This document shows, piece by piece, positions 1,031 to 27,564 of a stretch of DNA of 64,000 nt. Under the pieces are notes generated by a model that worked only from the letters and a program-made list of their open reading frames with translations, was not told the DNA's origin and did no database searches. The translations under genes and the position numbers were made by a program. Source of the stretch: Porticoccaceae bacterium (lineage in GTDB: Bacteria; Pseudomonadota; Gammaproteobacteria; Pseudomonadales; Porticoccaceae); the NCBI GenBank assembly GCA_002702725.1, contig PABE01000158.1, forward strand, positions 1 to 64,000. Reading direction: 5' to 3'. How positions within the stretch are numbered: position 1 is the stretch's first letter; each line of letters begins with the position of its first letter.

Positions 1031-1792
1031 TTATCCCCCACTCACGTGTATTCCATCAGAGCTAGCAAGGTATCTAGACAGCCGTAAACCGTTCGCTCGA
1101 AGCAATAATTCCGATTCTTTTCTCTGTATACCCCATATCTCGGCAAGTTTGACTGCCACAGTGGCAGCTTCCCACGGCATGACAGACGCACCACGAACTT
1201 TGGCGAATGGCCCATCACTTTCAGGAACTACACGATCACGGGGCATTTGACCCGCTAATCTCCGGCCATTAGCAGAAGCCAACATTGCAGGCCCAACGCT
1301 GAACCAACAGCCCATCTCCTTGGCTCGGGAAAGTTGCGAAGGTGAATCAGTAAACCAGTGGAGGACAGCTACCCCAAAACCCGAATGGGCTTCAAGTAAA
1401 CCCAGCACTTCCTTTGCAGACGATCGAGAGTGAATACTAAGGACACGCCCCCCGAGAGTTACACTATGCTGCAGAACTGACTGAAATATGTTCTTCTGTA
1501 GTTCAAAATGCTGCTTGTAGCGGGAAGAGCCATCAAGGCCGACTTCACCAACCCCAGAATACAGTTCCATTTGTGAAAGCAGCATCTCCAACTCGCCGAA
1601 CTTCTTATCTGCCACTTCTGGGTGAAGACCGGGAGAAATAAAGATTCGCTCTGATGCTGGAAGGACTTTTGATGTTGCTGCGAAAGCTCTGGGGCTGGTA
1701 GTGACCAACCAAACAAACTCGACCCTATCCGATGCTTCCACATAAACCTTTCGTGCATCAGGATAAAGATCCAAGTGGCAATGAAAGTCCAT
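1031..1792 (-). CDS. qatD: QatD, TatD-like metal-dependent nuclease of the Qat antiphage system
   Basis: A 253-residue TatD-family protein. The metal-ligand pattern of a TIM-barrel amidohydrolase-fold DNase is readable: H4-x-H6 at the N-terminus, E83 in GEVGLDG, H121, H145 and D193 in ESDGPF. Housekeeping TatD proteins are about 260 residues, so this is full length. It is the last gene of a four-gene operon with qatA, qatB and qatC, and its start codon overlaps the qatC stop by one base, which implies translational coupling. In the published QatABCD system all four proteins contribute to phage defence. The exact DNA substrate of this nuclease is not known from sequence. A RecB-like nuclease fragment follows in the same frame after the stop codon. 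Confidence 0.88.
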   Translation of the reverse strand: MDFHCHLDLYPDARKVYVEASDRVEFVWLVTTSPRAFAATSKVLPASERIFISPGLHPEVADKKFGELEMLLSQMELYSGVGEVGLDGSSRYKQHFELQKNIFQSVLQHSVTLGGRVLSIHSRSSAKEVLGLLEAHSGFGVAVLHWFTDSPSQLSRAKEMGCWFSVGPAMLASANGRRLAGQMPRDRVVPESDGPFAKVRGASVMPWEAATVAVKLAEIWGIQRKESELLLRANGLRLSRYLASSDGIHVSGG

Positions 1793-3048
1793 CAGATTAT
1801 GCCGTCCCTGCGAAGCACAACTGCAAGCTCTATTAATCCCTGTTCAATAACACGGCGGTATTGAGGCCGATCCGCCTGAGAGGCAAACGACAACGTGGCC
1901 CCCAGAAAAGAATCGATGCCTTGTTGCTCAGAGGAAAGAACTGCGCAAGCCACGGCCATGGGATCATCCGCCTTTGTCTTACCTGCGGATAATAAAGACG
2001 GAAATTTGTAATGTGTTGTATCAACTTGCCCCCAATGCTGGATGGCAGCCTTGCGAACCATACATGGCACACAACGTCCACAGTGCGTGCGATTGTAGGT
2101 ACGAAAACGACCACAGCTAGTTGTGTCACAAGCATGTTTTTTCAACATTGACTGATCAGCGCATTCTTCCAGCATCTCCCCTTTGGTTTTAAATCGGTAG
2201 GGCATGATTAGACTGGCTTTAATATCCAGATCTACCAACAACTCCTGAAGCATGGTCATAAATAACGGGTATGTAGTTCTGGTACTAAAACTGGCCATCC
2301 TTCCTGGCAATAAAGGCGGGTTGATGCTTATGAACCCATTTTCCGCCACAAGGATCTCTGCTTTTTCCATTGGTAGCAGCGATGTCGCAAGCACTGCCAG
2401 ACCATAGAAGGCCATTGAGCGAGCTCTTGTGGATGTCTCTTTCTTACCTTTGAATACAACACGGTGGCTCCACTGCTGATGCCAATCGCCACCACCAAGG
2501 TCATTGGCATATTTAATTTGTCGGGCTGAATCTTCAAAAGCGAGTTGTGATACAAAGATTGGCTTACGACCTTGCGCTACAGCATTGATCCCCCCTATCA
2601 GGCTATCGAGGCCACCTGAAAGCAAAGCGACACAGTCACGATCGCAAAGCCGGCGCTGGCCGTTGGGTGGGACAGGGCCACCTGCTGAGAATTGCAACGT
2701 CCAAAAATCGCCAGTCAATACACGCAACATCTTCTCGACAAGCTGACGATTGGCCTCCCATGGCGCGGGGTCATTGAGTGTGATATCAAGTTCAATCTGA
2801 CGGGTCCATCCATCGGCGCTTTCCTTTCGGAGAACGGACACATCAGCCGCATAGACAGCAAAGCAAAAAAGTACAAAATCCCACACTGGCACCGACGGGG
2901 CATAACCTTCCTTTTCCAGCTCTCGAAGCCAGCCATGGGCTATACGACCAACTTCAGGTTGGGGTGACGACTCCAGAAATGTGAATGCCTGGACATCCGG
3001 AGGAATATGATCCGGTAGCGATTTAACACTCGAACAAATAATTTTCAT
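1792..3048 (-). CDS. qatC: QatC, QueC-like PP-loop protein of the Qat antiphage system
   Basis: A 418-residue protein with an N-terminal extension of about 135 residues followed by a QueC-like (7-cyano-7-deazaguanine synthase) PP-loop ATPase domain. The PP-loop motif SGGLDS is at residues 144-149. A cysteine cluster near the C-terminal third (CDTTSC and HCGRCVPC) matches the zinc site of QueC. QueC adenylates and amidates carboxy-deazaguanine in queuosine synthesis. QueC-like proteins in defence loci are thought to modify proteins or nucleic acids; the substrate here cannot be told from sequence. No queD, queE or queF genes are adjacent, which supports the defence role. The start overlaps the qatB stop (ATGA) and the stop overlaps the qatD start, so all four genes are probably made from one message. 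Confidence 0.9.
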   Translation of the reverse strand: MKIICSSVKSLPDHIPPDVQAFTFLESSPQPEVGRIAHGWLRELEKEGYAPSVPVWDFVLFCFAVYAADVSVLRKESADGWTRQIELDITLNDPAPWEANRQLVEKMLRVLTGDFWTLQFSAGGPVPPNGQRRLCDRDCVALLSGGLDSLIGGINAVAQGRKPIFVSQLAFEDSARQIKYANDLGGGDWHQQWSHRVVFKGKKETSTRARSMAFYGLAVLATSLLPMEKAEILVAENGFISINPPLLPGRMASFSTRTTYPLFMTMLQELLVDLDIKASLIMPYRFKTKGEMLEECADQSMLKKHACDTTSCGRFRTYNRTHCGRCVPCMVRKAAIQHWGQVDTTHYKFPSLLSAGKTKADDPMAVACAVLSSEQQGIDSFLGATLSFASQADRPQYRRVIEQGLIELAVVLRRDGII

Positions 3049-3911
3049 GATTCAGAAAACACCGTTAGTGCATCTTGAAGAGCGGCATTCGCAATCTCCC
3101 TCATCGCTCTTGGTGCACCACCGGCACGAGCCATTTGCATAGATCGATTGACAACCACCATTACGTAATCGAGAACCTGCCCCAAGCGATTCTGCACGAG
3201 CTGGGGCGCATATTTCAGCTTTTCAAATACCTGACCAAGCTCAAGCTGAATCCGGTTATAAACATCAAAAGCCAACGTGTACGCCATCAAGTTGGCGATT
3301 TGATCGTCCGTCAAATTAAAGATATCGGCGTTCGGTTCCACTTCGTAGAGATGTGCAATAGCATGATCCATGGAGTGTCTGGCTGAATCCTCGTCAACAC
3401 TCCCTCCCGTTGGAATTAATTTCTGCACGACTTCGAGTGCGGTTTCCTTGGCAGAAAGTCCGCGCTGCTTTATTGAATCGACCCAAGTATTAATGCTTGG
3501 ATCAGAACCGTCGCGAGCGGTTGCAAGAAATCCACCCAAAGACGATGCGGCAATTGCGCTTGTCCGCATTCGACTCGCGGCTCTGGACGATCCTCCCATG
3601 CCCTTCTTCACAAAGCTTGAAACACCTCGGCGCAGGTCGGAGCTGCTACCAGACCGTACAAACCCGGTCAATGCACCACGAGCCTGTTGATACCGTCCTG
3701 GCGGAGCTTTGGCAGAACCGGCAGGTGGTGTCGTCGGATTCTGATTATCCTCCCCATCCTCTGTGCTGCTGCCGTCATCTGAGGGGGTTGCGCCCGGGCT
3801 TAGGGGAACTTCCGCGTAGTCGCTATCAATACCGGCACCAGCATCATCCAGCCATGGAGGATCAAAGGGCGCGCCTGTACCCGCACCGGAACTCGATGCT
3901 GACGTACCCAT
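3045..3911 (-). CDS. qatB: QatB, Qat antiphage system protein of unknown function
   Basis: A 288-residue protein placed between the KAP ATPase and the QueC-like gene, the position of QatB. The first 80 residues are rich in Gly, Ser, Pro and acidic residues and are probably disordered. It opens with MGTSASSSG, resembling the Gly/Ser-rich opening I recall for QatB proteins. The rest is predicted helical, with a Gly/Ser/Ala-rich segment around residues 100-130 and no enzyme motif I can name. The start overlaps the qatA stop by one base and the stop overlaps the qatC start. The function is not established; inferred from position it may be an adaptor or the substrate of the QueC-like enzyme. Confidence 0.85.
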   Translation of the reverse strand: MGTSASSSGAGTGAPFDPPWLDDAGAGIDSDYAEVPLSPGATPSDDGSSTEDGEDNQNPTTPPAGSAKAPPGRYQQARGALTGFVRSGSSSDLRRGVSSFVKKGMGGSSRAASRMRTSAIAASSLGGFLATARDGSDPSINTWVDSIKQRGLSAKETALEVVQKLIPTGGSVDEDSARHSMDHAIAHLYEVEPNADIFNLTDDQIANLMAYTLAFDVYNRIQLELGQVFEKLKYAPQLVQNRLGQVLDYVMVVVNRSMQMARAGGAPRAMREIANAALQDALTVFSES

Positions 3912-5782
3912 TATTTCCTCCTCGCATTAGTGATTGCCCGCTTGACAGACTCCTGTGCATCCGCATCGCTTACCCACTTGTCCAGAATGTCCTTTGCCCA
4001 ATCACAGTCCGCCAAAGCAGAAACAAATCCGGGAGCAAGCTGAGCGATAGGCGCTTGACTAATGAATCCAGCCGCACGCGGCCCCGCACTTGGGTGAATG
4101 CGGCAAACCTCAGTCAACATCAAAATTTCGTCATGCTTCTGCCAAGTTCTACCGGACCGCCTTGCATCCCACGCCCTCGCCATAGCAAGACCAGATTGAA
4201 TATCCCCGGCCTCTCGAATCTGTTGTTTTAATGCATCATTTGATGTTCGAGCGGAAACCAGCGAATCACGCAGCGCCTTGCCAGCGGCATTTAGCTCATC
4301 CGCGCCAAAATCCCTGATCGTACTGTCGCGGCTTAAATGCAATATAGGCCTCAAGTCCATGTCGCCAAGAGGTGGTTCGAGCCTGAGCCACTCACGCGAA
4401 AACGCTTTGTCGCCAAAGAGTGCGGGAAGCTTTTGATCCTCATCTTTCGCAACTTCTTCTGCCTCGCGAAGAATTTCAACTTTGCCTTCGTTCTCAGCAG
4501 AGACCCTTTCTGCAAGTGCATTCGCGATTGATTCATCGCAACGTTCAAGAAGGTGCCACTTCGCTAAAACCTGGACATCCACGTCGATGTTTTGAGGTTT
4601 AGCTAGCGTCTTGCGCAGGAATACGGTGTTGAGAAAGCGTTTGACCAATCTCGGATTAGCTTGAACCGTACTTGCACTAAATAGCAGCGGAGCCAACCGC
4701 TCTGCCAACCCCATCAAACCCAGAAGCTCAGAATTCCCTTGCGGAGCGAGACTTTCCAAAAACGTCAGGTCTACGGACTTCCCGGTCCATGTTTCTCTCA
4801 ATCGCGTCTCGACACTGGATTTCGCAGAATCAAAGGTTTCAGCGTCAAGCTGACCATTGCGATGAGCGCGCTCCAAGAACAATAATGCGGTATAGGCTTT
4901 AGTCTCATTCGGACCCAGTCTTGGTACACGCAGTGGCACTTGTATCAACTTGTCGAAGTAGTTAGTTGCGATATCATCATCTAGGCCAGTACCTGCAAAA
5001 TGCACACGCACAGCACCACGAATAAAGACATCATCTGCGGCAATAACGAATGCACTTCGCCGCAAAAATAGCAGTAGACGAATTGCCTCCAGTGTGGAAA
5101 TGGCAGTTTTAGGTAGGCACCTATCCAGGTCGTCGACAAAAACGATCAGCGTGATCCTTAGCTCTTCGAGAAGATCTTCCAGCGCATCCCGGAATGACTG
5201 GATTTCTTTGGGGAGTGAAATGGGCTGAGCTTCATTCAACAGCCCTTTTGTAGCACTTTGTGCTTCCTGTAATGCAGCATGCCCTTCCTGGACAGATTTA
5301 TTCCTCCATGCTTCCGTGCCGGATTCCACCACCTTCCCAATGAGACCGACGGGAACCCCTGTGATGATTGTGGCAGCCGTCTCTCCTCCAAGCTGGGCCA
5401 GTCGCAGGAGATTAATTCGCTTTACAAGTGACTTGGCCTTATCAAGCAGGCCTGCATCTTCCTCGGATTCCTTGAGAACCGCGTCCCCCACTGTTTGCAG
5501 AAGTGCCGTTCGGGCGTCTTCAAAACCTTGATATAGCCATGGGTTGAACGTAACGACTATATACCTTGTACTACCCTGCCCATCTGCTTTCTTGTTGGAA
5601 ACCGGGTCAGGTGATAATTCCGATGCGACCATTCGGACGAGGGAGGATTTACCCATGCCCCAACCACCAGATATGCCGATAGAGATTGGCTCGCCTCCTG
5701 CGTCCCGAACGAGCTCAGCACAAGCCTTGGCTACAAGCCGGAAGTTGACATAGTCAACAGTAGTCTCGTTGTCATGCCACAT
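3911..5782 (-). CDS. qatA: QatA, KAP-family P-loop NTPase of the Qat antiphage system
   Basis: A 623-residue KAP-family ATPase. Walker A is GGWGMGKSS at about residues 39-47. Walker B is FVDDLDRC near residue 215, the characteristic KAP form. The segment TFNPW after Walker A is also typical. Many KAP NTPases have membrane helices between these motifs; here there is only one short, weakly hydrophobic Ala/Gly/Ile stretch, so the protein is probably soluble or peripheral. It is the first large gene of qatABCD and is likely the ATP-driven sensor or remodelling part. An AGGAA ribosome site precedes the ATG. A 35-codon open frame (5794-5901) ends 11 bases before this start. The promoter must lie in the 300-bp region shared with the divergent WYL operon. 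Confidence 0.9.
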   Translation of the reverse strand: MWHDNETTVDYVNFRLVAKACAELVRDAGGEPISIGISGGWGMGKSSLVRMVASELSPDPVSNKKADGQGSTRYIVVTFNPWLYQGFEDARTALLQTVGDAVLKESEEDAGLLDKAKSLVKRINLLRLAQLGGETAATIITGVPVGLIGKVVESGTEAWRNKSVQEGHAALQEAQSATKGLLNEAQPISLPKEIQSFRDALEDLLEELRITLIVFVDDLDRCLPKTAISTLEAIRLLLFLRRSAFVIAADDVFIRGAVRVHFAGTGLDDDIATNYFDKLIQVPLRVPRLGPNETKAYTALLFLERAHRNGQLDAETFDSAKSSVETRLRETWTGKSVDLTFLESLAPQGNSELLGLMGLAERLAPLLFSASTVQANPRLVKRFLNTVFLRKTLAKPQNIDVDVQVLAKWHLLERCDESIANALAERVSAENEGKVEILREAEEVAKDEDQKLPALFGDKAFSREWLRLEPPLGDMDLRPILHLSRDSTIRDFGADELNAAGKALRDSLVSARTSNDALKQQIREAGDIQSGLAMARAWDARRSGRTWQKHDEILMLTEVCRIHPSAGPRAAGFISQAPIAQLAPGFVSALADCDWAKDILDKWVSDADAQESVKRAITNARRK

Positions 5783-6083: not shown

Positions 6084-6985
6084 ATGCCCAACCCCATCCC
6101 AATGGATACCAACCAAGCACAGCGAGAGCGGCTGTCGCACATTGATTTCAAAGCGTGTTTTTTGGGAGCTATCGGGCGCAGCGATCTGGTGGCCCGCTTT
6201 GGCATAAAGGAAGCCGCTGCCACCAGGGACATTACCCTATACAAGGATTTGGCCCCGGAGAACCTGGAATACGACACCAAAGCCAAGATCTACATCCGGG
6301 CACCCTCCTTTGAACCCCTGTTCGATTACTCCCCCAGCCAGGCCCTGGCTGCACTGGCCCACGGATTCGGCGATGACTTTGTCGGTAAGCATAAGGCTCT
6401 GATTGCCTGCGAGGCCCCGGCACAGCTCAACAACCCAGACTTGGAGACTCTGTCCGTACTGACCCGAGCCATCCATCAGCACAAAGCGGTCAGCCTGGTG
6501 TATCGCTCCCTCAGCAGCGGCCGCAGCACGCGCGAGGTGGTTCCATTTGCGCTGGTTGATAACGGTCTGCGTTGGCACATCCGTGGCTACGACCGGAAAC
6601 GCTTAAGATTCTCCGACTTTGTAATTACCCGAATCTCCGACCCGGAAATCCTTGACGGGCCTATAAAGGAGCACGAAAACCGGGAACAGGACATCCAGTG
6701 GAATCGAATCGTCGAGTTGGAAATCGTCCCTCACCCCAAACTCAAGCACCCCAAGACCATTGAAACGGATTACGCCATGGAGAATGGCGTATTGAAGGTC
6801 AATGTTCGGGCTGCCGTGGCGGGTTACGTCCTCCGGCGCTGGAACGTCGACTGCTCAGAAAAACACAGCATGGATGGCTCTGAATACCACCTCTGGCTAA
6901 AAAATAGGCAGGCGCTGTATGGCGTTGATAACCTCGTTATCGCACCCGGTTACAGCCAGAGCAACCAGATTACCAAGGAAGGCGC

Positions 6986-6989
<4 letters not shown>
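6084..6989 (+). CDS. WYL-domain transcriptional regulator (BrxR/CapW-like)
   Basis: A 301-residue protein with an N-terminal winged-helix DNA-binding region (about residues 10-70, with the run [11 protein letters not shown] typical of the recognition region), a central WYL domain (about 125-205, with [11 protein letters not shown] and [10 protein letters not shown]) and a C-terminal WCX-like extension ending near residue 295. This layout matches repressors found in front of BREX, CBASS and other defence operons. WYL domains sense nucleic-acid or nucleotide ligands, so this protein may release its promoter during infection. It lies directly downstream of a strong promoter overlapped by inverted repeats, suggesting autoregulation. 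The stop overlaps the start of the SNF2 gene (ATGA). No good ribosome site precedes 6084, so the next ATG at 6102 is a possible alternative start. Confidence 0.82.
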
Positions 6990-10537
<3,548 letters not shown>

Positions 10538-10546
10538 GGTTCATCA

Positions 10547-13468
10547 ATGACCGAGATAAAAACACCCAAAAAGTTGATTGAGGTCGCGCTACCTCTGGAT
10601 GACATCAATGTTGCGGCTGCACGGGAAAAATCAATTCGTCACGGCCACCCAAGCACGCTGCATCTCTGGTGGGCGCGGCGGCCATTGGCGGCAGCGCGGG
10701 CAGTGCTGTTTGCTCAGTTGGTGAACGATCCCGGTTACCAGCGTGAATTGGGATTCGGCGTAAATAAGAAAGAGGCAGAAAAAAAGCGGGAGAAGCTATT
10801 CCAGATCATTCGCGATTTGGTGAAGTGGGAAAACACCAATAACGAAGAGGTGCTCAACCGCGCTCGCGCAGCGATCTGGGATAGCTGGCGTGAAACCTGC
10901 CACCTGAACCGCAACCACCCACAGGCTGCCGAACTGTTTAACCCGGAAAAGCTGCCCGCATTCCATGATCCTTTCGCCGGTGGTGGTGCCATTCCATTGG
11001 AAGCCCAGCGATTGGGGCTGGAAAGCTACGCCAGCGATCTGAACCCCGTAGCAGTCATGATCAACAAAGCGATGATCGAGATTCCGCCCAAGTTTGCAGG
11101 TCAAGTGCCAGTCGGGCCGCTCACGGAACTGAATACAAGTGGTAAGGACAGTGTCCGCCCTGGCCAATCAATGAATGAGGACTGGTCCGGCGCAAAGGGC
11201 CTAGCCGAAGACGTGCGTCGCTACGGGCATTGGATGCGCGAGCAGGCCTTTAAGCGCATCGGGCACCTGTACCCCAAGGTCGAGATTACCCCGGAAATGA
11301 CGGCTGAACGGCCCGATCTAAAAGCCTATCAGGGTGAAGAGCTGACCGTGATTGCCTGGCTGTGGGCTAGAACAGTAAAAAGCCCTAACCCGGCGTTCAG
11401 TGATGTAGACGTACCGCTGGTACGATCTTTTGTGTTGTCCTCTAAGAAAGGCAAAGAGGCTTGGGTCGAGCCGGTGATCGAGGGCAACAACTATCACTTT
11501 GAAGTGCGAATGGGCAAGCAGCCAGCCGATGCAATTGCCGGTACGGTCGAGCGCACGGGTGCTACCTGCATCATGTCCCAGACAGCCATGCCATTTAAAT
11601 ATGTTCGGGCGGAGGGTAAAGCCGGGCGCATCGGCGAGCGGCTCATGGCGATTGTCGCGGAAGGCGCTCGGGCCCGGGTTTACCTCTCGCCGACAGAGGA
11701 TATGATAAAGGTTGCTCGTACAGCCCAACCCGAGTGGAAGCCAGAGCACAATCTGCCGGTGAACCCGCGAGACTTCAAAACACCGAATTATGGGCTCAAC
11801 ACTTTTGGCGACCTCTTTACCCCCCGCCAACTGGTAGCATTAACGACCTTCTCTGATTTGGTGCAAAAAGCTCGCGAAAAAGCTATTGCCGACGCTAAAA
11901 TCGCTGGCCTGGCGGATGACGGCCAAGGCCTAGCTCACGGGGGCACAGGGGCTACGGCTTATGGGGACGCACTGGCTGTATTCCTTGCATTTGCGTTGGA
12001 CAAAGTTGTTGACCGAGGGTCAACGATAACGCGTTGGGATCCTACGCCCACACAAAGTGGGGTTATTAACACGTTTAGTCGCCAAGCAATTCCAATGACT
12101 TGGGACTTTTCCGAATCGAACCCTCTTGGAGATGCATCTGGAAACTTTGTTAGCAGTACCCTTTTAGTTGCAAAGGTAATGGATAAGTTTCCCTGCCTAC
12201 TAAGCGGATCAATCACACAGAGTGACGCGGCGACTCAAACGATTTCTCAGGACAAGGTTATATCTACTGACCCCCCGTATTACGACAATATCGGCTATGC
12301 TGACCTGTCCGACTTCTTTTACGTTTGGATGCGTCGCGCTTTGCGAAATATATACCCCGCGCTTTTTGGAACTATGGCTGTGCCGAAGGCTGAAGAATTA
12401 GTTGCCACGCCATACCGACATGGAAGCAAAGAAAAAGCCGAAGCCTTTTTTATGGATGGCATGACCCGAGCAATCCAAAACTTGGCAGTTCAAGCACATC
12501 CTGCTTTTCCAGTATCCATCTACTACGCTTTCAAACAATCAGAAACCAAGGAAGGTAGTACGACTAGTACCGGCTGGGTGACCTTTTTGGAGGCTGTTAT
12601 TCAAGCCGGTTTTTCTATCGATGGTACGTGGCCAATGCGAACAGAGCTGGCCAATCGCATGATTGGTTCAGGCAACAATGCACTTGCATCCTCAATCATT
12701 CTGATTTGTCGAAAACGTGAAACCAACGCCGAATCCATCTCTCGTCGCGACTTCCAGCGCCAATTACGGGAAGAGATGCCCGAGGCACTGGAAACCATGA
12801 TCGGTGGTGAAACCGGCCAAACACCTATTGCACCCGTAGACTTGGCTCAATCAGCCATCGGGCCCGGCATGGCGATTTACTCCAAATATGAAGCCGTACT
12901 CAACCAGGATGGTTCGCGCATGAGTGTCCACGACGCCCTGGTTCTGATAAATCGCGCCATTACCGAGTACCTGAGCCCGGATTCCGGCAGCTTCGATGCT
13001 GATACCCAGTTCTGCTCAAGCTGGTTTGAACAATATGGTTGGGGTAACGGCCCCTTCGGCGAGGCCGACACTCTTTCACGTGCCAAGGGCACCAGTGTGG
13101 AAGGCGTGCGCGAAGCCGGCGTACTGGAATCCGGTGGCGGCAAAGTGCGCCTGCTTAAATGGGCCGATTACAAGGCAGATTGGGACCCAACCACCGACAA
13201 CCGCACGCCCATCTGGGAAGCCTGCCACCAGATGATTCGCAGCCTGAACAATCAGGGAGAATCAGCTGCCGGTGAGCTTTTGGCCAAAATGCCAGAGAAA
13301 GGCGAGTCCATCCGTCAACTGGCCTACCACCTCTACACCCTCTGCGAACGCAAAAAATGGGCGGAAGAGGCCCGCGCCTATAACGAATTGATCGGTTCCT
13401 GGCACGCCATTGTCACCGCCTCTCACGAGGTGGGCCATAGTGGTGAACAGACCGGACTGGACTTTTAA
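10547..13468 (+). CDS. DUF1156 DNA methyltransferase
   Basis: A 973-residue protein with the typical DUF1156 opening ([12 protein letters not shown], then [20 protein letters not shown]). A SAM-binding motif [13 protein letters not shown] is near residue 141 and the amino-methyltransferase catalytic motif DPPYYDN near residue 575, so it should methylate adenine N6 or cytosine N4 in DNA. DUF1156 proteins occur in defence islands beside SNF2 helicases and DUF499 ATPases. It most likely marks self DNA. About 12,000-12,720 (residues 485-725, including DPPY) is only about 42-50% GC by hand count of sample lines, against 58-68% on both sides, with different codon use. This suggests replacement of a catalytic/specificity segment by recombination. 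It lies nine bases after the helicase and eleven before the next gene. Confidence 0.9.
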
Positions 13469-13479
13469 GGAGGCATTCG

Positions 13480-16272
13480 ATGACGAGTACAGATTGGCCC
13501 TATCCTGGCTCGCGCTGGTGGAAGTTTGACTTTCACACCCATACGCCTGCCTCTAAGGACACAACCGCGTGGCAGAGGGCTCTCGGGAGCCCTGATGAGT
13601 TAACCGCCGAAGCCTGGTTGCTAAAGTATATGGTAGCCGGGATCGACTGTGTGGCTGTCACGGACCATAACAGTGGTGCGTGGATAGACCAGCTCAAAGA
13701 AGCCTACGCCGCCATGAAGGATCAGGATAACCTGGGGCTTGCGCCTGAGGGTTTTAGAGAACTGACATTGTTTCCCGGTGTTGAAATTTCAGTCAGCGGT
13801 GGCTTCCACCTGTTGGCTATTTTTGGCCCGGAAGCATCTACGCGCACAATAACCGATCTGCTATCGGCAGTTCGTTATCAAGGCACAGATGGCGATAGCG
13901 ATGGTGTCACTCGGGAAGGCCCGGAAACGGTCATTGAGGAAGTTCTGAAAGCCGGCGGACTTCCGGTTCCTGCTCATGCCGATCAAGAGAAGGGCTTACT
14001 GAGGTGCCAGCCAGAATCTAAACGAAGTCAGGTTGACGCCAACACACTGCGCCAGGCCATTGGCATAAAAGGACTGTTGGCCGTGGAATGGTGTGACGGC
14101 AGCAGTCCCTGGCCGGAGTGTGTGGCGGATGCAGAAAGTCGTCTCGCCCGCGTGTTAGGCAGTGACTGTCACAGTTTCCAGGGAAATGCCGTGCCGGGCA
14201 GTCGGTTTACCTGGGTCAAAATGGCTAGCCCCACCCTCGAAGGGCTACGCCTGGCGCTGCTTGATGGCAATGGTGTGTCGATTCGACGCAGCGATGAGGG
14301 TGAGTTTAACCCGTTCCGGGTTCCACCCCACGCCATTACTGCCATAGATATTGAAGGGGGCCGCTATATTGGCAATGGCCGGACTGCACGACTTGAGTGC
14401 TCGCCTTTCTTTAATGCCATTGTCGGAGGGCGGGGTACGGGTAAGTCCAGCGTGGTACATGCCTTACGCCTGGCCGCTCGCCGCGAACAGGAATTAACGC
14501 AACTCGGGCCAGACAGCGAACCCCGTGCTCAATTCGAAGATTTCCGCAAAACCGCCAAGGGGCGCGATGACAAAGGTGCGCTGCGAGACAACACCGAGAT
14601 TCGCGTGGAATGGGAGCACGACGACACCCGGTTACGGTTGCGCTGGCGCGCCGATGGTCAAGGTGTCGTCGTCGAAGAGTGGAATGACAACCAATGGCTG
14701 GAATCCAGTAGCCAAAGCGTAAACGCGGCGCGCTTTCCGCTGCGCATTTTCTCCCAGGGGCAAATCGCCGCAATGGCCGGAAGCGGTCGGCAAACCTTAC
14801 TGTCGATCATTGATGAGGCGGCTAATGTCGAGACATTGAAGCAGGCCTTTGAGGAGGCAAAACGCACATTCTTTACCCAACGGGCCCGGCTGCGGGAACT
14901 CGATGGCAAACTCGCCGGAGAACCTGAGGTTAAACGAAAGCTGGAAGAAACCAGCAGGAAGTTGGCCGCTCTGTCTCAGACCGACCAGGCATCCGTACTA
15001 CGAGCTTATGGTCAGTCACAGCACCAGTCCCGTGAGGTGAAAAACCTGTTTGAGCAGTTGCAGGATGATTCGGGTCGTATTTCCGATCTGGCTGAGCAAA
15101 TCATGCTGGACGACTGGCCCACTCAATACTTCACAGAGCAGGATGCGGATATTCTGGCGTTACGCAAGGAAATTGACGCTCAGGTCGCACAGGTTCGAAC
15201 CGGGCTGCAGGAACAAGCGAAAAAGCTCAGAGGCATTGTTGAGTTTGTTCAGAAAGACCCAGGCTATTCGCAATGGAGCGCACGTGTTCAGTCTGCTCAG
15301 CAAGCCCATACCGAGTTACAACAGAAGTTGGCAACCCAGGGTGTGAGTGATCCGCAAGCCTTCGCCCGTCTGACGCAAGAAAAGCAGCAGTTTGAAACGC
15401 AGTGCAAGGCATTCTCGAAGATGCGTAGCGACCGAGAGGAGTTGTCCCGTCAAATAGGTGCGCAACAAACATTGTTGAGCGAGAAACGAGTAGCTATCAC
15501 TCAGGCGCGAAACACCTTCGTGCAACATACTCTGGCCAACAACACCCACGTGAAAATCGCTGTCGTGCCTAATGGTTATGACGAGCGTCAGCTGGAGCGC
15601 GAGGTGCGCGAGCTGATCGACGTAGGAAATGATCGCTTTGCGGAAGACATTTTGAAATTTGATAACGAAGAGCCCTCCGGCGGGCTCGCGTTTGATCTGG
15701 CTAGAGCCGATAACGCCGAAAAAGAATCCGCCGTTGAAGCCGTCAAGCAGCGATTAATAAATATGGATGGTGTGGGTGGACACTTTCGGAACGCACTGCA
15801 ACGTAAGCACGAAAAGCCAGAATTCGCAGACCATATTGAGGCCTGGTTTCCAGAAGATGATCTGCGCATCGAGTATCAGCGCGAAGGCAGCTGGCACCCT
15901 ATTAGCCGAGGGTCACAGGGTCAACGCTCTGCAGCATTACTGGCGTTCTTGCTTGCGTTTGGTGAGGAACCTATTGTTCTCGACCAGCCTGAAGACGACC
16001 TCGACAATCACTTGATATACGACCTGATCGTGCGACAGATCCGCGAAAACAAGTTGCGTCGTCAGCTCATTATTATTACCCACAACCCAAATGTGGTTGT
16101 AAATGGCGATGCCGAACTGGTGCATGTGATGGAGTTTGGGCGCGGGCAGTGCTACGTCCAGCAAAGCGGCGCTCTCCAGGAGACCGAGCTGCGTAGTGAG
16201 GTATGTAGGGTGATGGAAGGTGGTTACGAGGCTTTTTCCCGGCGCTGGAAGCGATTAGGAACGGAGTTTTAA
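13480..16272 (+). CDS. PHP-domain and SMC-like ATPase fusion (TrlF-like)
   Basis: A 930-residue two-part protein. Residues 15-235 form a PHP phosphoesterase domain: FDFHTHT (H19, H21), VTDHNSG near 61, PGVEIS near 105, AHADQ near 165 and GSDCHS near 228 supply the usual metal ligands. From residue 290 comes an ABC/SMC-type ATPase: Walker A GGRGTGKSS near 317, a long coiled-coil-prone middle, signature SQGQRS near 812, Walker B IVLDQPEDDLDN near 832 and the H-loop THNPN. This matches proteins I recall as TrlF-family AAA-like ATPases. PHP domains are metal-dependent phosphatases or nucleases, so this is the strongest candidate effector nuclease in the operon. It begins eleven bases after the methyltransferase with an AGGAGG ribosome site, and ends one base before the next ATG. 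Confidence 0.85.
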   Translation: MTSTDWPYPGSRWWKFDFHTHTPASKDTTAWQRALGSPDELTAEAWLLKYMVAGIDCVAVTDHNSGAWIDQLKEAYAAMKDQDNLGLAPEGFRELTLFPGVEISVSGGFHLLAIFGPEASTRTITDLLSAVRYQGTDGDSDGVTREGPETVIEEVLKAGGLPVPAHADQEKGLLRCQPESKRSQVDANTLRQAIGIKGLLAVEWCDGSSPWPECVADAESRLARVLGSDCHSFQGNAVPGSRFTWVKMASPTLEGLRLALLDGNGVSIRRSDEGEFNPFRVPPHAITAIDIEGGRYIGNGRTARLECSPFFNAIVGGRGTGKSSVVHALRLAARREQELTQLGPDSEPRAQFEDFRKTAKGRDDKGALRDNTEIRVEWEHDDTRLRLRWRADGQGVVVEEWNDNQWLESSSQSVNAARFPLRIFSQGQIAAMAGSGRQTLLSIIDEAANVETLKQAFEEAKRTFFTQRARLRELDGKLAGEPEVKRKLEETSRKLAALSQTDQASVLRAYGQSQHQSREVKNLFEQLQDDSGRISDLAEQIMLDDWPTQYFTEQDADILALRKEIDAQVAQVRTGLQEQAKKLRGIVEFVQKDPGYSQWSARVQSAQQAHTELQQKLATQGVSDPQAFARLTQEKQQFETQCKAFSKMRSDREELSRQIGAQQTLLSEKRVAITQARNTFVQHTLANNTHVKIAVVPNGYDERQLEREVRELIDVGNDRFAEDILKFDNEEPSGGLAFDLARADNAEKESAVEAVKQRLINMDGVGGHFRNALQRKHEKPEFADHIEAWFPEDDLRIEYQREGSWHPISRGSQGQRSAALLAFLLAFGEEPIVLDQPEDDLDNHLIYDLIVRQIRENKLRRQLIIITHNPNVVVNGDAELVHVMEFGRGQCYVQQSGALQETELRSEVCRVMEGGYEAFSRRWKRLGTEF

Positions 16273-16273
16273 T

Positions 16274-17545
16274 ATGTTTGGTACACGTAGTGAATTGCTT
16301 GAAAAAATCCAGCTGGGCGAAGACAGCTTTCTTGAGCTTAAAGAGGTTCGTTTTGCGGGCGACAAAATCCGGGGGCCGTCACAGGTAGACCTTGCCGATG
16401 AACTGGCGGCCTTCGCGAACAGCGCCGGTGGCGTGCTGGTGCTCGGCGTTGAAGACAAAAGCCGTGAAGTCGTGGGCGTCCCTCTGGAACGGCTGGATGC
16501 ATTGGAATCCTTGGTCCGTGAAGCGTGCGAGCAGTCCATCAAACCACCCTTGGCCCCTATTATTGAACGCATGACGTTACCGGATACCAGCGGTAGCGAA
16601 CAACCAGTCATTCGTATTGATGTTTCTCGCAGCTTATTCGTGCATCAGAGCCCTAGCGGCTATATGCAGCGGGTGGGATCATCGAAACGCCCAATCCCGC
16701 CGGACCAACTTGCACGACTGTTTCAGCAACGGAGCCAGTCTCGCCTGATCCGCTTCGACGAAACACCGGTGGCCAAAGCAACAGTGGCGGACCTGGATGA
16801 AGCTCTGTGGAAGCGGTTTGTACCGTCGCAACACCACAGCGCGCTGGAAACTGTGCTGGACAAGCTGGCTATGGCCGCTCGTGATGACCAGGAAGTATGG
16901 CGGCCCACCGTTGCGGGATTGCTGATGGCCAGCCACGAACCACAGCGCTTTTTGCCAGGGGCCTTTATTCAGGCCGTGGCCTATCAGGGAGCACACGCCC
17001 TGCCTGAAGCTGAAAAAGCTTATCAGCGGGATGCTCAAGACATCACTGGGCCTCTGGACCAGCAAATATTAGGGGCCTGCGCTTTTGTGCGCAAAAATAT
17101 GCAGGTTGCAGCTCGAAAACGCGCAGCGGGCGGGCGTGAAGATTTGCCTCAATTCGATCTGCTCGTCATCTTCGAAGCGGTTACCAATGCCGTTGCCCAT
17201 CGGGACTACTCAATGGGTGGTGCCAAAATACGGCTCCGCCTGTTCGATGACCGGCTGGAGCTGTACTCACCCGGTATGCTCCCCAACACCATGACGCCTG
17301 AGAGTTTGCCATTCCGGCAGGCGGCACGAAATGAGGCACTCACCAGCCTGCTGGCTCGCTGCCCTATTGAAGATGACGCTTTGTCTGCTCACCGTCAGCA
17401 CCTGATGGATAAACGCGGTGAGGGTGTCCCCATTATTCTTGAAATGAGTGAGCGCTTGTCCGGCAAACGCCCGGAATATCAGCTCAGTGATGAGAGTGAA
17501 CTGAAGCTGACGATATACAGCGCACAGATGGAGAACGAACTATGA
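16274..17545 (+). CDS. AlbA_2 (Schlafen-type) ATP-binding protein
   Basis: A 423-residue protein with an N-terminal Schlafen AlbA_2 domain (about residues 15-130; FLELKEVRF, then [18 protein letters not shown]) and a C-terminal HATPase_c_4-like region ([13 protein letters not shown] near residue 301, then [14 protein letters not shown]). These proteins are often called ATP-binding proteins or putative transcriptional regulators; Schlafen-type domains can also act as RNases. It could be a regulator or a nucleic-acid-targeting component. It starts one base after the PHP/SMC gene and its stop overlaps the DUF499 start by four bases (ATGA), so it is firmly part of the operon. Confidence 0.82.
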
Positions 17546-20391
17546 GCCTGAAGCCATGGCGAGAGATTGCCCGCCCGCATAAGGACGTACTGGAAGGCAC
17601 CTTTAAGCAGTCTGAATTCGCTGCCGATATCACTCAGGTTGCTAACGGTACTGCAACCGATGAGTACCAGGATGCAGAGAAGTTCTTTTCCCGCACGTTT
17701 ATTACCGAAGGCATGCGCCTGCTACTGATCTCTGTCGCACAGCGACTGGCTGGCCACGGTGGCGATCCGGTTATTCAGCTGCAAACCGCCTTTGGTGGCG
17801 GTAAAACCCATACCCTTCTGGCTGTGTACCACTTGGCATCCCGTAAAGTCGGCACGGAAAAGCTCCACGGCATTCCGCCGGTGTTGGACGAAGCCGGAAT
17901 TCAGAGCCTTCCCTCGGCCAAAGTAGCTGTAATTGATGGCATCAAACTGTCACCCAGCCAGCCCAGACAATATGGGAACATAACCGCCAACACGCTGTGG
18001 GGCGAATTGGCCTGGCAACTGTTAGGTGATGAAGGTTATCAGATGGTCGCCGACAGTGACGCCGATGGCACCTCGCCCGGGAAGGAAGTTCTGACCGAGT
18101 TGATTCGTAAGGCAGCCCCTTGCGTGATCCTGGTAGATGAGCTTGTCGCGTTTATTCGCCAACTGGAACTTGGCAAGCAATATAAGGCTGGCACATTCGA
18201 CAGCAACATCAGCTTTGTTCAGGCGCTCACCGAAGCGCTGAAGGCGGTACCCAATGCCATCCTGTTGGCATCACTGCCGGAATCGGAGCTGGAAGTGGGT
18301 GGCACCATGGGCCAGCGGGCGCTTAACTCCCTGGAGAAATACTTTGCCCGGGTGGAGTCCGTCTGGAAGCCGGTGGGTACAGAAGAAGCCTTTGAAATTG
18401 TGCGCCGCCGCCTGTTTGAGACTCCTGGCGAACGCGCCGAGGTGGAAGGCATCAGCCGTCAGTTCTCGGACTTTTATCGCAACAATGCCGAGAAATTTCC
18501 GGTCGAAACCCAGTCCAACGAATACTTCGAGCGTCTTTGCCGTTCGTATCCGATCCACCCGGAGATTTTTGACCGTCTCTACGAGGACTGGTCCACGCTG
18601 GAAAAATTTCAGCGTACCCGGGGTGTACTGCAGTACATGGCCATTGTTATCCACCGTCTGTGGAACTCGGACAACAAAGATGCGCTGATCATGCCCGGCT
18701 CACTGCCGCTGGAAGACAGCAATGTACGCAACAAGAGCATCCACTACTTGCCGCAAGGCTGGGAACCGGTCATTGAGCGCGAGGTGGATGGTAGCCGTTC
18801 AGCGCCCCACGATATCGATGGCCACCACACACTGTTTGGTGGCGTTCAGGCGGCCCGTCGTACTGCCCGGACCATTTTCCTCGGCAGCGCACCATCCACT
18901 ACGGATCAGATGATTCGCGGTGTTCAGGTCGAACGTATCCTGCTGGGTACCGTGCAACCCGGGCAAACTATTGGCGTATTTGAGGACGTGCTTAAGCGCT
19001 TGCGGGATCGCCTGCATTACCTCTATTCCGACAAGGACCGGTACTGGCTGGATACGAAGCCCAACCTGCGCCGAGAGATGGAAAGCCGCAAACAGAACAT
19101 CAGCGAGCGCGATGAGCTGCTGCCCCTGCTGAAAACTCGCGTTAACCAGGTGTTTGGGCGCAATCACCAGTTCGGCGGTGTACATGTATTTACACCGTCT
19201 GTCGATGTGCCGGATGACTATGGCACAGGCCCTCGCCTGGTGGTGCTGCCGACCCATGCCGCCTATAGCCGCAGTGAGACCAATCAGGCATTTACGGCAG
19301 CAGAAGAGATTCTGCGCAACCGGGGCGACCTGCCTCGGCAAAAGCAGAACCGCTTGATCTTCCTGGCGCCGGATTACGATGTGGTCAGCCGACTCAAGGA
19401 ACAGGCGCGCATCTTCTTGGCATGGAAATCCATCGTCACCGACATTGAAAACGGTAATTTGAATCAGGATCTCTCCCACCTGAATCAAGCCAAACGCAAT
19501 CGCGATGGCGCGGAGCAATCCCTGTCGCAACTGGTGCGTGAAACCTACAAGTGGTTGATTGCCCCAGTTGAGGAGTTCGTAAAAAGTAAACCAGTGCTGA
19601 ATTGGGAAGTGGTTTCGGTATCCCCCACAGCACCCAGTCTGATTCAGGCTATCGAAGAGAGACTGCGTGAAGAGGAATGGATGATCTACGAGTGGTCGCC
19701 TATCCATCTCCGCAATATACTGAGCCAGTGGTATCTGAAAAGCGATGCAAAGGACGTTGGCGCACTAAAGGTCTGGCAGGACTGCTGCCACTATCTCTAC
19801 CTGCCAAGACTGGTCAACGACAGTGTATTCCGCAATGCCATCAACCAGGGCGTTGAGGCAGAAGACTTCTTCGCTTTTGCCTCGGGGAAGGAAGGTGACC
19901 GTTACTTGGGCTTCACCTTCGGACGCGGTTCGATCGCCACTTTAGATGAGTCTTCGCTTCTCATCGATCGCGAAGCCGCGGTTGCCTACCGCGAGAGCAC
20001 AGCTCAGCCGCCACAGACCACGCCGCATCTTGGCGGTATGGGTGGTGAACCAAAAGGTTCGACAGCACCCGTTGGACAAAGTGGTAGCACAGTGACACCG
20101 CAGCCAACGCCAGGGTCAATAGGCGCTACTCGCGCACCCTTGTCGGCTGCAACTAAGAAGCAGTTTTACGCAACCATCTCGCTTGATCCGGTCAGGGCCA
20201 AAATGGACTTCGCTACAATCATTGATGAAGTCGTGCAGCAGTTCACCTCCAAGCTTGGCGTCAATGTCAAAATTTCTGTTGAGATTGAAGCGACCAGCCA
20301 GGACGGATTCAACGAATCCATGCAACGCACGGTCAAGGAAAATTGCAACGTCCTGCGCTTCAACTCAGCGGAATTTGAAGAGGAATCATGA
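17542..20391 (+). CDS. DUF499 P-loop ATPase
   Basis: A 949-residue DUF499 protein. Walker [11 protein letters not shown] is at about residues 84-93, Walker [11 protein letters not shown] near 194, and the early segment [11 protein letters not shown] is typical of the family. Near residues 820-870 a low-complexity Gly/Thr/Pro/Gln linker precedes a final domain of about 90 residues. DUF499 ATPases recur in defence islands with DUF1156 methyltransferases and large helicases; their mechanism is not established. By analogy with other large AAA-type defence ATPases it may sense or remodel phage DNA complexes. It closes the six-gene operon. No strong terminator follows, only a weak CCGAA/TTCGG hairpin near 20,402-20,423. 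Confidence 0.85.
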
Positions 20392-26077: not shown

Positions 26078-27316
26078 TCATCCTCCTAGTGGAGTGCACT
26101 GATCCGTCGAACGAATAGAATCCAAATAATCTGCCCACCATTGCATCATCTGTGTTCGCTCGTCTAGATAGCGCGCGTGATGGGTATATGCCGCCCGCAC
26201 TCCATTCCTTTCCATGTGAGCCAACTGACGCTCAATAGCATCAGGATTAAAACCCTGTTCATTGAGGATGGAGGAAGCTGTTGCGCGAAACCCATGCGGA
26301 ACTGCCTTCCTCTTCCCAGGCGTTTTGCCATCATACCCTAACTTAAAAATCGCCCTTCGCATTGTATTATCACTCATTGGCTCGTGCCGATGACGTTCAG
26401 ATGGGAATACCAGGTCATAGCTCCCGGAGATTTGCGCTATTTTTTTCAACAGTGTGATGGCTTGTCTGGATAAAGGTACCAAGTGTTCCGTCTTCATCTT
26501 CATTCTTGGCGCGGGGATCCGCCATACCCCGGTATCTAAATCAAATTCATCCCACTTTGCCCCTCTTAGCTCGCCAGAACGAACAAATGTCAATACAAGC
26601 AGCTGAATAGCGTATTTTGTAATCAGTCGACCACGACTGTCGTAACCGTCTAGCGCCCTCAGAAAATCTGGAAGCTGTTCTCTAGGTAGAGAGTCACGGT
26701 GCTTGGATTTTCTTGCTTTCAGAACTCCAGTTAGATCTATCGCCGGGTTGTTAACGAGCCGCCCCGTTTGAACGGCATAACGACAGATACGCCGAACATC
26801 TTGCAGCACTCGGGATGCCACATCCAGTGCACCACGGCTCTCAATCTTCCGTAGTACGGACAAAATATCCGGGGGCTGGATCTGCGAAATAGATAGATGT
26901 CCTAAATAGGGAATGACATCCTCCTTGATTCTGCGCCATACACGATCAGCATGATGTTCGGTCCAGGTACCGCGCTGGTGATCCCACCACTCCTTGGCGA
27001 CAACCACGAACAGACTCGTTTCCTCAAGAACTTCGTCTCGTCGCTTCCTTTGTTTCTCCTGTGAGGGGTCTATGCTATCGACGAGCTTTGCCTTGGCATC
27101 CGCCACTGCATCTCTGGCAGCTTTAAGACTGACAACTGGATAGGTACCACAGGCAAGCGTCTTACGCTTGCCCGCAAACCGGTAGTCATAGCGCCAACAC
27201 TTGGATCCATTGCGTCTGACCAAGAGGTACAGACCGCCACCATCGGTCATCTTATAGTCCTTTTCCCTGGCTTTCGCCTGCCGAACCTTAGTATCTGAGA
27301 GAATGTGTAATGCCAT
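26078..27316 (-). CDS. intA: P4-type tyrosine integrase
   Basis: A tyrosine recombinase of about 412 residues. The N-terminal DUF4102 arm-binding domain begins LSDTKVRQAKAREKDYKMTDGGG, and I place the start at the ATG at 27316 because that is where family members begin; the frame is open to 27367. The catalytic residues are visible: Arg in FVRSGELRGAKW near 245, HGFR near 338, the later His in LAHMERN, and the C-terminal AYTHHARYLDER with the nucleophilic tyrosine. The C-terminal MMQWWADYLD is typical of P4/CP4-57 integrases. It lies 164 bp from the 3' end of tRNA-Leu(GAG), the expected arrangement for an element integrated into a tRNA gene. Confidence 0.93.
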   Translation of the reverse strand: MALHILSDTKVRQAKAREKDYKMTDGGGLYLLVRRNGSKCWRYDYRFAGKRKTLACGTYPVVSLKAARDAVADAKAKLVDSIDPSQEKQRKRRDEVLEETSLFVVVAKEWWDHQRGTWTEHHADRVWRRIKEDVIPYLGHLSISQIQPPDILSVLRKIESRGALDVASRVLQDVRRICRYAVQTGRLVNNPAIDLTGVLKARKSKHRDSLPREQLPDFLRALDGYDSRGRLITKYAIQLLVLTFVRSGELRGAKWDEFDLDTGVWRIPAPRMKMKTEHLVPLSRQAITLLKKIAQISGSYDLVFPSERHRHEPMSDNTMRRAIFKLGYDGKTPGKRKAVPHGFRATASSILNEQGFNPDAIERQLAHMERNGVRAAYTHHARYLDERTQMMQWWADYLDSIRSTDQCTPLGG

Positions 27317-27417
27317 TTGACGGTATCGAGCAAAATTGAACCGAGATACCGGCAACGATACCGTCAAAAAGCGTGGATGGCAATGGAATTGGGAGGACCT
27401 CTACGGGCTCCCTAGAC

Positions 27418-27443
27418 ACAAAAAACCCCGGAAAACCGGGGTG
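27418..27443 (-). terminator. Intrinsic terminator of tRNA-Leu
   Basis: On the minus strand, ACCCCGG and CCGGGGT form a stem around TTTT, followed by six T residues. It ends transcripts leaving secG and tRNA-Leu before the integrase gene. Confidence 0.8.
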
Positions 27444-27479
27444 TTATGTACGTCCTTGGACTGCTGTGGACGTTGAAAT

Positions 27480-27564
27480 GGTGCCCAGGGCCGGACTTGA
27501 ACCGGCACGACTTGCGTCACTACCCCCTCAAGATAGCGTGTCTACCAATTTCACCACCTGGGCT
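27480..27564 (-). tRNA. leuU: tRNA-Leu(GAG), probable attachment site of the island
   Basis: An 85-base leucine tRNA including an encoded CCA end. The acceptor arms GCCCAGG and CCTGGGC pair, the T arm has GGTTCAAGTCC, and the anticodon loop TTGAGGG gives GAG, matching leuU-type tRNAs. It follows secG, as in E. coli and Pseudomonas. The integrase begins 164 bp past its 3' end, so the tRNA 3' half is the likely core of the attachment site. No second copy of this 3' end was seen in the window, so the far island end must lie to the left of position 1. Confidence 0.95.

Follow-up and report, generated by a model that had tools for sequence, protein, structure and literature searches.

In the 64,000-nucleotide stretch of Porticoccaceae bacterium DNA analyzed here (the window), the low-GC segment of the hmaB gene is probably part of the target recognition insert of HmaB, an insert with two modules (A and B) that are exchanged separately and that we propose read DNA. 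Each module has moved between lineages independently of the other and of the remaining operon.

The operon contains HmaA, HmaB and HmaC together, each with a full-length PADLOC match:

6084..6989, + strand: WYL-domain protein, likely the operon regulator (Pfam WYL)
6986..10537, + strand: hmaA, SNF2-type helicase with NOV_C domain (PADLOC HmaA, 2250 bits; Pfam)
10547..13468, + strand: hmaB, DUF1156 alpha-class adenine-specific DNA methyltransferase, 973 aa (full-length match to PADLOC HmaB, 1791 bits; Pfam DUF1156)
17542..20391, + strand: hmaC, DUF499 AAA+ ATPase (PADLOC HmaC, 1605 bits)

Pfam places DUF1156 (PF06634) at the N-terminus of HmaB (residues 14-87, E 1.1e-30) and NOV_C at residues 1054-1143 of HmaA. 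As judged from these matches, the operon is an Hma defence system, i.e. a type-1 DUF499-centred BREX-related system. Systems of this kind methylate host DNA, restrict phage and carry a C-terminal PD-(D/E)XK nuclease on the helicase. The Hma system was described in PMC8565338, in which the family is known from 26 phyla, and was redescribed as the type-1 DUF499-centred BREX-related (BR) systems in PMC12839542.

The hmaB reading frame is open over all 973 codons, and the following features are distinguished in it:

10967..10987, + strand: motif I DPFAGGG (SAM binding), residues 141-147, from the translation
11453..11812, + strand: module A, residues ~303-422, first hypervariable module, beta-rich in the structure model, not low-GC in the window's strain
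11822..12019, + strand: two predicted spacer helices between A and B, residues 426-452 and 469-491, from the model
11993..12244, + strand: module B, residues ~483-566, second hypervariable module, low GC3
12002..12721, + strand: low-GC3 tract, residues 486-725, from GC, GC3 z and codon permutation
12269..12280, + strand: catalytic motif IV DPPY, residues 575-578, from the translation; invariant in 74 homologues
12272..12721, + strand: residues 576-725, conserved catalytic half, low GC3 in the window's strain

In the same 74 homologues D141, P142, F143, G145 and G147 of motif I are also invariant. The motif order (motif I, a long insert, then DPPY) is, on sequence grounds, that of an alpha-class amino-methyltransferase. 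PMC8565338 predicted HmaB to be an m5C methyltransferase; DPPY and the motif order here point to an amino (N6-adenine) enzyme, the type likewise stated by PMC12839542. In a structure model of HmaB (mean pLDDT 81) the insert splits a Rossmann core: strands 139-141 and 160-164 come before it and strand 570-574 after it, so that it follows core strand 2. For the model core, alignment to class I methyltransferases gives at best Z 14.1, with an rmsd of 3.1 over 168 residues; no solved structure related to HmaB by sequence was found. The location of the insert matches the placement of the target recognition domain in PMC12839542, where the HmaB-family insert was so assigned from sequence and structure. 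Within the insert, spacer residues 426-452 are well conserved among homologues.

A sequence-only reading of this DNA had described 12000-12720 as a low-GC segment, in an intact frame and including DPPY, that looked like the product of allelic exchange of a target-recognition region. The descriptive part of this holds. The dip is real: the segment has 46.7% GC, whereas 720-base windows across the operon (span used for GC statistics, 6084-20391) have a mean of 55.3% (sd 2.2, minimum 46.7%), which makes it the lowest-GC stretch of that size in the operon. The frame is indeed intact and DPPY lies inside the segment. Along hmaB, GC3 is about 0.38-0.53 over residues ~480 to ~720, down from about 0.62-0.65, and returns to about 0.6 past ~740. 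Measured against codon usage in the flanks of hmaB itself, GC3 z values were: residues 455-575, -4.4; 576-650, -2.9; 651-725, -4.1; 311-425, +0.4. When synonymous codons were permuted within hmaB, the lowest 240-codon GC3 window was found to begin at residue 486 (GC3 0.425, p = 2e-4), in agreement with the extent first proposed (residues 485-725). Amino-acid composition as the source of the dip is ruled out by the z values against the flanks and by the permutation.

Does the loss of identity among homologues coincide with this tract? Only in part. The drop that had been anticipated over residues 485-725 is sharp at 476-575 (36-57% identity with the nearest homologues) but ends at ~567. Residues 576-725, the DPPY half that had been counted as replaced, are as conserved as the rest, with 93% protein identity to the nearest homologue (L002) and not to the relatives of module B (L019 and L030). 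Furthermore, comparison with 83 homologues reveals that identity drops at two places, A (~303-422) and B (~483-566), where the sequence-only reading had recognized a single exchanged segment and overlooked module A. Module A of the query (the window's HmaB) is 77-90% identical to that of homologues L002-L006 and about 50-60% identical to that of other homologues with equally similar flanks. Its module B is unlike that of all close homologues, but over residues 483-542 it has about 70-90% identity with L030 (Rhodanobacter) and L019 (Grimontia), two homologues with more distant flanks. Among pairs whose flanks match at 80% or more (n=175), A has a median identity of 49% and B one of 44%, near the level of all pairs. 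The two modules are not detectably homologous to each other (profile comparison, probability 0.2%).

Exchange is also evident from correlations between operons. Among 57 operons, the pairwise identities of HmaA, HmaC and HmaB-tail segments are mutually correlated (0.69-0.91), whereas those of A and B correlate with these segments at -0.06 to 0.17 and with one another at 0.01; the genome pairs in these correlations are not independent. Mantel p values were: A-B, 0.43; A-HmaC, 0.60; B-HmaC, 0.11; HmaB tail-HmaC, 0.0005. In sliding windows the correlation is lost over about residues 200-680, with a sharp end in windows starting at 681. Saturation is not the cause of the decoupling of A and B since HmaC 810-900 is equally divergent yet correlates with HmaC at 0.76. 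Trees give the same picture. The query is placed differently in the flank, A and B trees: with Rhodanobacter and Grimontia in the B tree, and with others in the A and flank trees. AU tests reject moving the query (p <= 1e-4), although these p values are optimistic because the B clade was named only after the B tree had been seen.

The most clear-cut example of exchange is a natural one, visible in the DNA of Escherichia coli and Kosakonia pseudosacchari JM-387. The E. coli strains AW1.7 and ET846 do not differ at all in DNA over >2.8 kb ending near codon 450; past this point about half of the positions agree over B and about 65-87% as far as codon ~711, and then 95-100%. AW1.7 and Kosakonia, on the other hand, share a block from B to residue ~725 that differs by two bases in about 800, whereas their A modules have only 63% protein identity. 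The right end of this block falls at, or very near, the end of the query's low-GC tract; its left end lies about 35 codons before the tract. In this exchange the catalytic half (576-725) travels with B, and exchanged tracts may reach about residue 725. The idea that a recognition region has been exchanged is therefore borne out by the identity drop, the conflicting trees and the E. coli/Kosakonia block; what does not stand is the use of GC content as evidence for it, and the inclusion of the catalytic half.

Low GC3 characterizes the family in A and B and, to a lesser degree, in the 150 codons that follow. Once amino acids are corrected for, significantly low GC3 is seen in 80 of 89 homologues at residues 455-575 (B), in 66 at A, in 40 at 576-650 and in 50 at 651-725; for control segments the figures are 1 to 11 of 90. 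Across hosts, the GC3 of B follows that of the flanks with a slope of 0.52, against 1.07 for the control. This sharing of the dip is what the sequence-only reading had itself named as evidence against a replacement private to the strain. A recent single replacement of residues 485-725 in the window's strain from a low-GC donor, with the dip as its scar, is accordingly unlikely. The sharp borders of the dip near residues 486 and 725 are in its favor, as are the right-hand border in common with the E. coli/Kosakonia block and the GC3 of the query's residues 576-725, which is below that of about 70-80% of the homologues. However, the query's B is not lower in GC3 than that of the homologues, about 70% of which have a stronger dip, and residues 576-725 resemble L002 and not L019 or L030. 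The unusually low GC3 of 576-725, taken with the identity to L002, makes a separate history of that half possible. As a caution, a GC dip within a specificity gene need not signal recent transfer into a given strain.

If A and B are exchanged, do they bind DNA? That their ligand is a partner protein or phage inhibitor instead of the DNA target is less likely still than a single replacement. Such a role would fit the outcome of a fold search with the insert alone, which gave no convincing match in PDB or BFVD and no solved DNA-binding fold. Against it, no co-variation links either module to the variable regions of HmaA or HmaC (partial r -0.07 to -0.17), and the insert is at the alpha-class target recognition domain position, as assigned in PMC12839542.

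Fast point evolution in surface loops under diversifying selection, with drift to AT and without exchange, is very improbable. Variable regions do tend toward lower GC3 in hmaA, hmaB and hmaC (Spearman 0.50-0.64), but HmaA regions as divergent as the modules have almost no GC3 deficit, in equally divergent HmaC regions it is small or absent, save in HmaC 801-900, and these regions have kept the operon history. Moreover, point evolution is contradicted by the close sharing of B between distant lineages and by the near-identical DNA of the AW1.7/Kosakonia block. It is of note that the C-terminal part of HmaC (~801-900) is hypervariable and low in GC3, yet tracks operon history (0.76), and so evolves fast without exchange.

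Phase variation of the kind found at some hsdS loci, in which silent cassettes or an inversion switch the gene within one genome, has next to no chance of being correct. Modular exchange resembles the hsdS case (PMC7394358), but the window's genome (a draft of 165 contigs, 91% complete) has a single match, no second or partial copy of the recognition region occurs in the window or in the fetched loci of 92 alleles, and no 12-base repeats flank the low-GC tract. Because A and B are not detectably related and silent cassettes were not found, the process resembles allelic exchange between genomes and not switching within one. Further searches gave the following. Viral contigs contain no relatives of the full HmaB protein; with residues 455-724, 15 IMG/VR loci (L127-L141) were matched, the best at 63% identity, and none is a donor. 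The only phage relatives were distant Sulfolobus virus methylases (26%), and a search with module B in plasmids and 398 genomes of the phylum gave a best match of about 53%.

Most likely, then, the two modules together make up a bipartite target recognition domain swapped by recombination, a role in specificity that we infer. Each module would contact part of the DNA target, and swaps would take place by homologous recombination within the conserved flanks. One swap would change the methylated and the protected sequence while leaving the helicase and ATPase unaltered. The modules would remain AT-rich if their circulation through AT-rich donors outpaced adaptation to each host. Their AT-richness may come from such an AT-rich donor pool, or GC-biased gene conversion may fail to act on them where sequences are too dissimilar to recombine.

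Type I, III and IIG enzymes are well-known cases of recognition-domain exchange (PMC3077401, PMC7379913). HsdS of Type I systems resembles HmaB in having two variable modules, a conserved helical spacer and separate exchange, and also in having AT-rich recognition parts beside GC-richer conserved parts: in E. coli K-12 the recognition parts of hsdS have a GC3 of 0.12-0.26 in most windows and hsdM has 0.66 (a single-gene comparison, and thin). AT-rich recognition modules are thus not peculiar to Hma. Unlike HsdS, HmaB is one polypeptide that includes the catalytic domain, and whereas the target recognition domains of HsdS can move between positions (PMC3077401), A and B of HmaB are without detectable relationship. 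In the Type III Mod and Type IIG enzymes of Helicobacter pylori (PMC7379913) recombination likewise replaces a recognition part inside the methyltransferase and leaves the rest conserved, but the Mod proteins have one recognition domain each and HmaB has two modules exchanged separately. In BREX, one methyltransferase (PglX/BrxX) sets the specificity of both methylation and defence, and engineering it retargets both (PMC11341690); by analogy, HmaB might do the same. PglX is, however, of the gamma class with its target recognition domain on the C-terminal side, whereas HmaB has the alpha-class order and an internal insert. No reports of recognition-module exchange in Hma/BR systems were found in the open-access literature (subscription papers were outside the scope of the search). 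The new element is the presence of two separately exchanged modules inside an alpha-class methyltransferase.

We tentatively extend this to a two-part code, in which the unrelated modules A and B might each read part of the target, and Hma/BR systems across phyla might combine specificities from an AT-rich pool shared across genera. If A and B do set separate parts of the target, natural pairs of strains that share A without B, or B without A, are the informative ones. Were the code confirmed, it would become possible to read directly how a widespread family of defence systems encodes recognition, and retargeting without re-evolution of the helicase and ATPase would be explained.

In its three Hma proteins, matched end to end, its DUF1156 N-terminus and its internal recognition insert, the window's operon is like the Hma (PMC8565338) and type-1 BR (PMC12839542) systems; it differs in that a TrlF/Ppl-family ATPase and an AlbA/Schlafen-type protein lie between hmaB and hmaC (13480-17545, + strand). 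Relatives of this pair were found in few of the 81 loci searched; in one of these, L003, they have the same position and 88-92% identity. Other genes adjoin hmaB in E. coli operons, and the hma operon seems to provide slots in which accessory genes can sit. A complete QatABCD defence system (1031-5782, - strand) is located directly upstream of the hma operon and is transcribed in the opposite direction:

3911-5782, - strand: QatA
3045-3911, - strand: QatB
1792-3048, - strand: QatC
1031-1792, - strand: QatD

No attachment-site repeat of the tRNA-Leu end of at least 14 bases is present within the window. A tyrosine integrase adjoins tRNA-Leu(gag) (27479-27563; whole region 26078-27563, - strand), and its position beside this tRNA gene makes the qat-hma region look like an integrated island.
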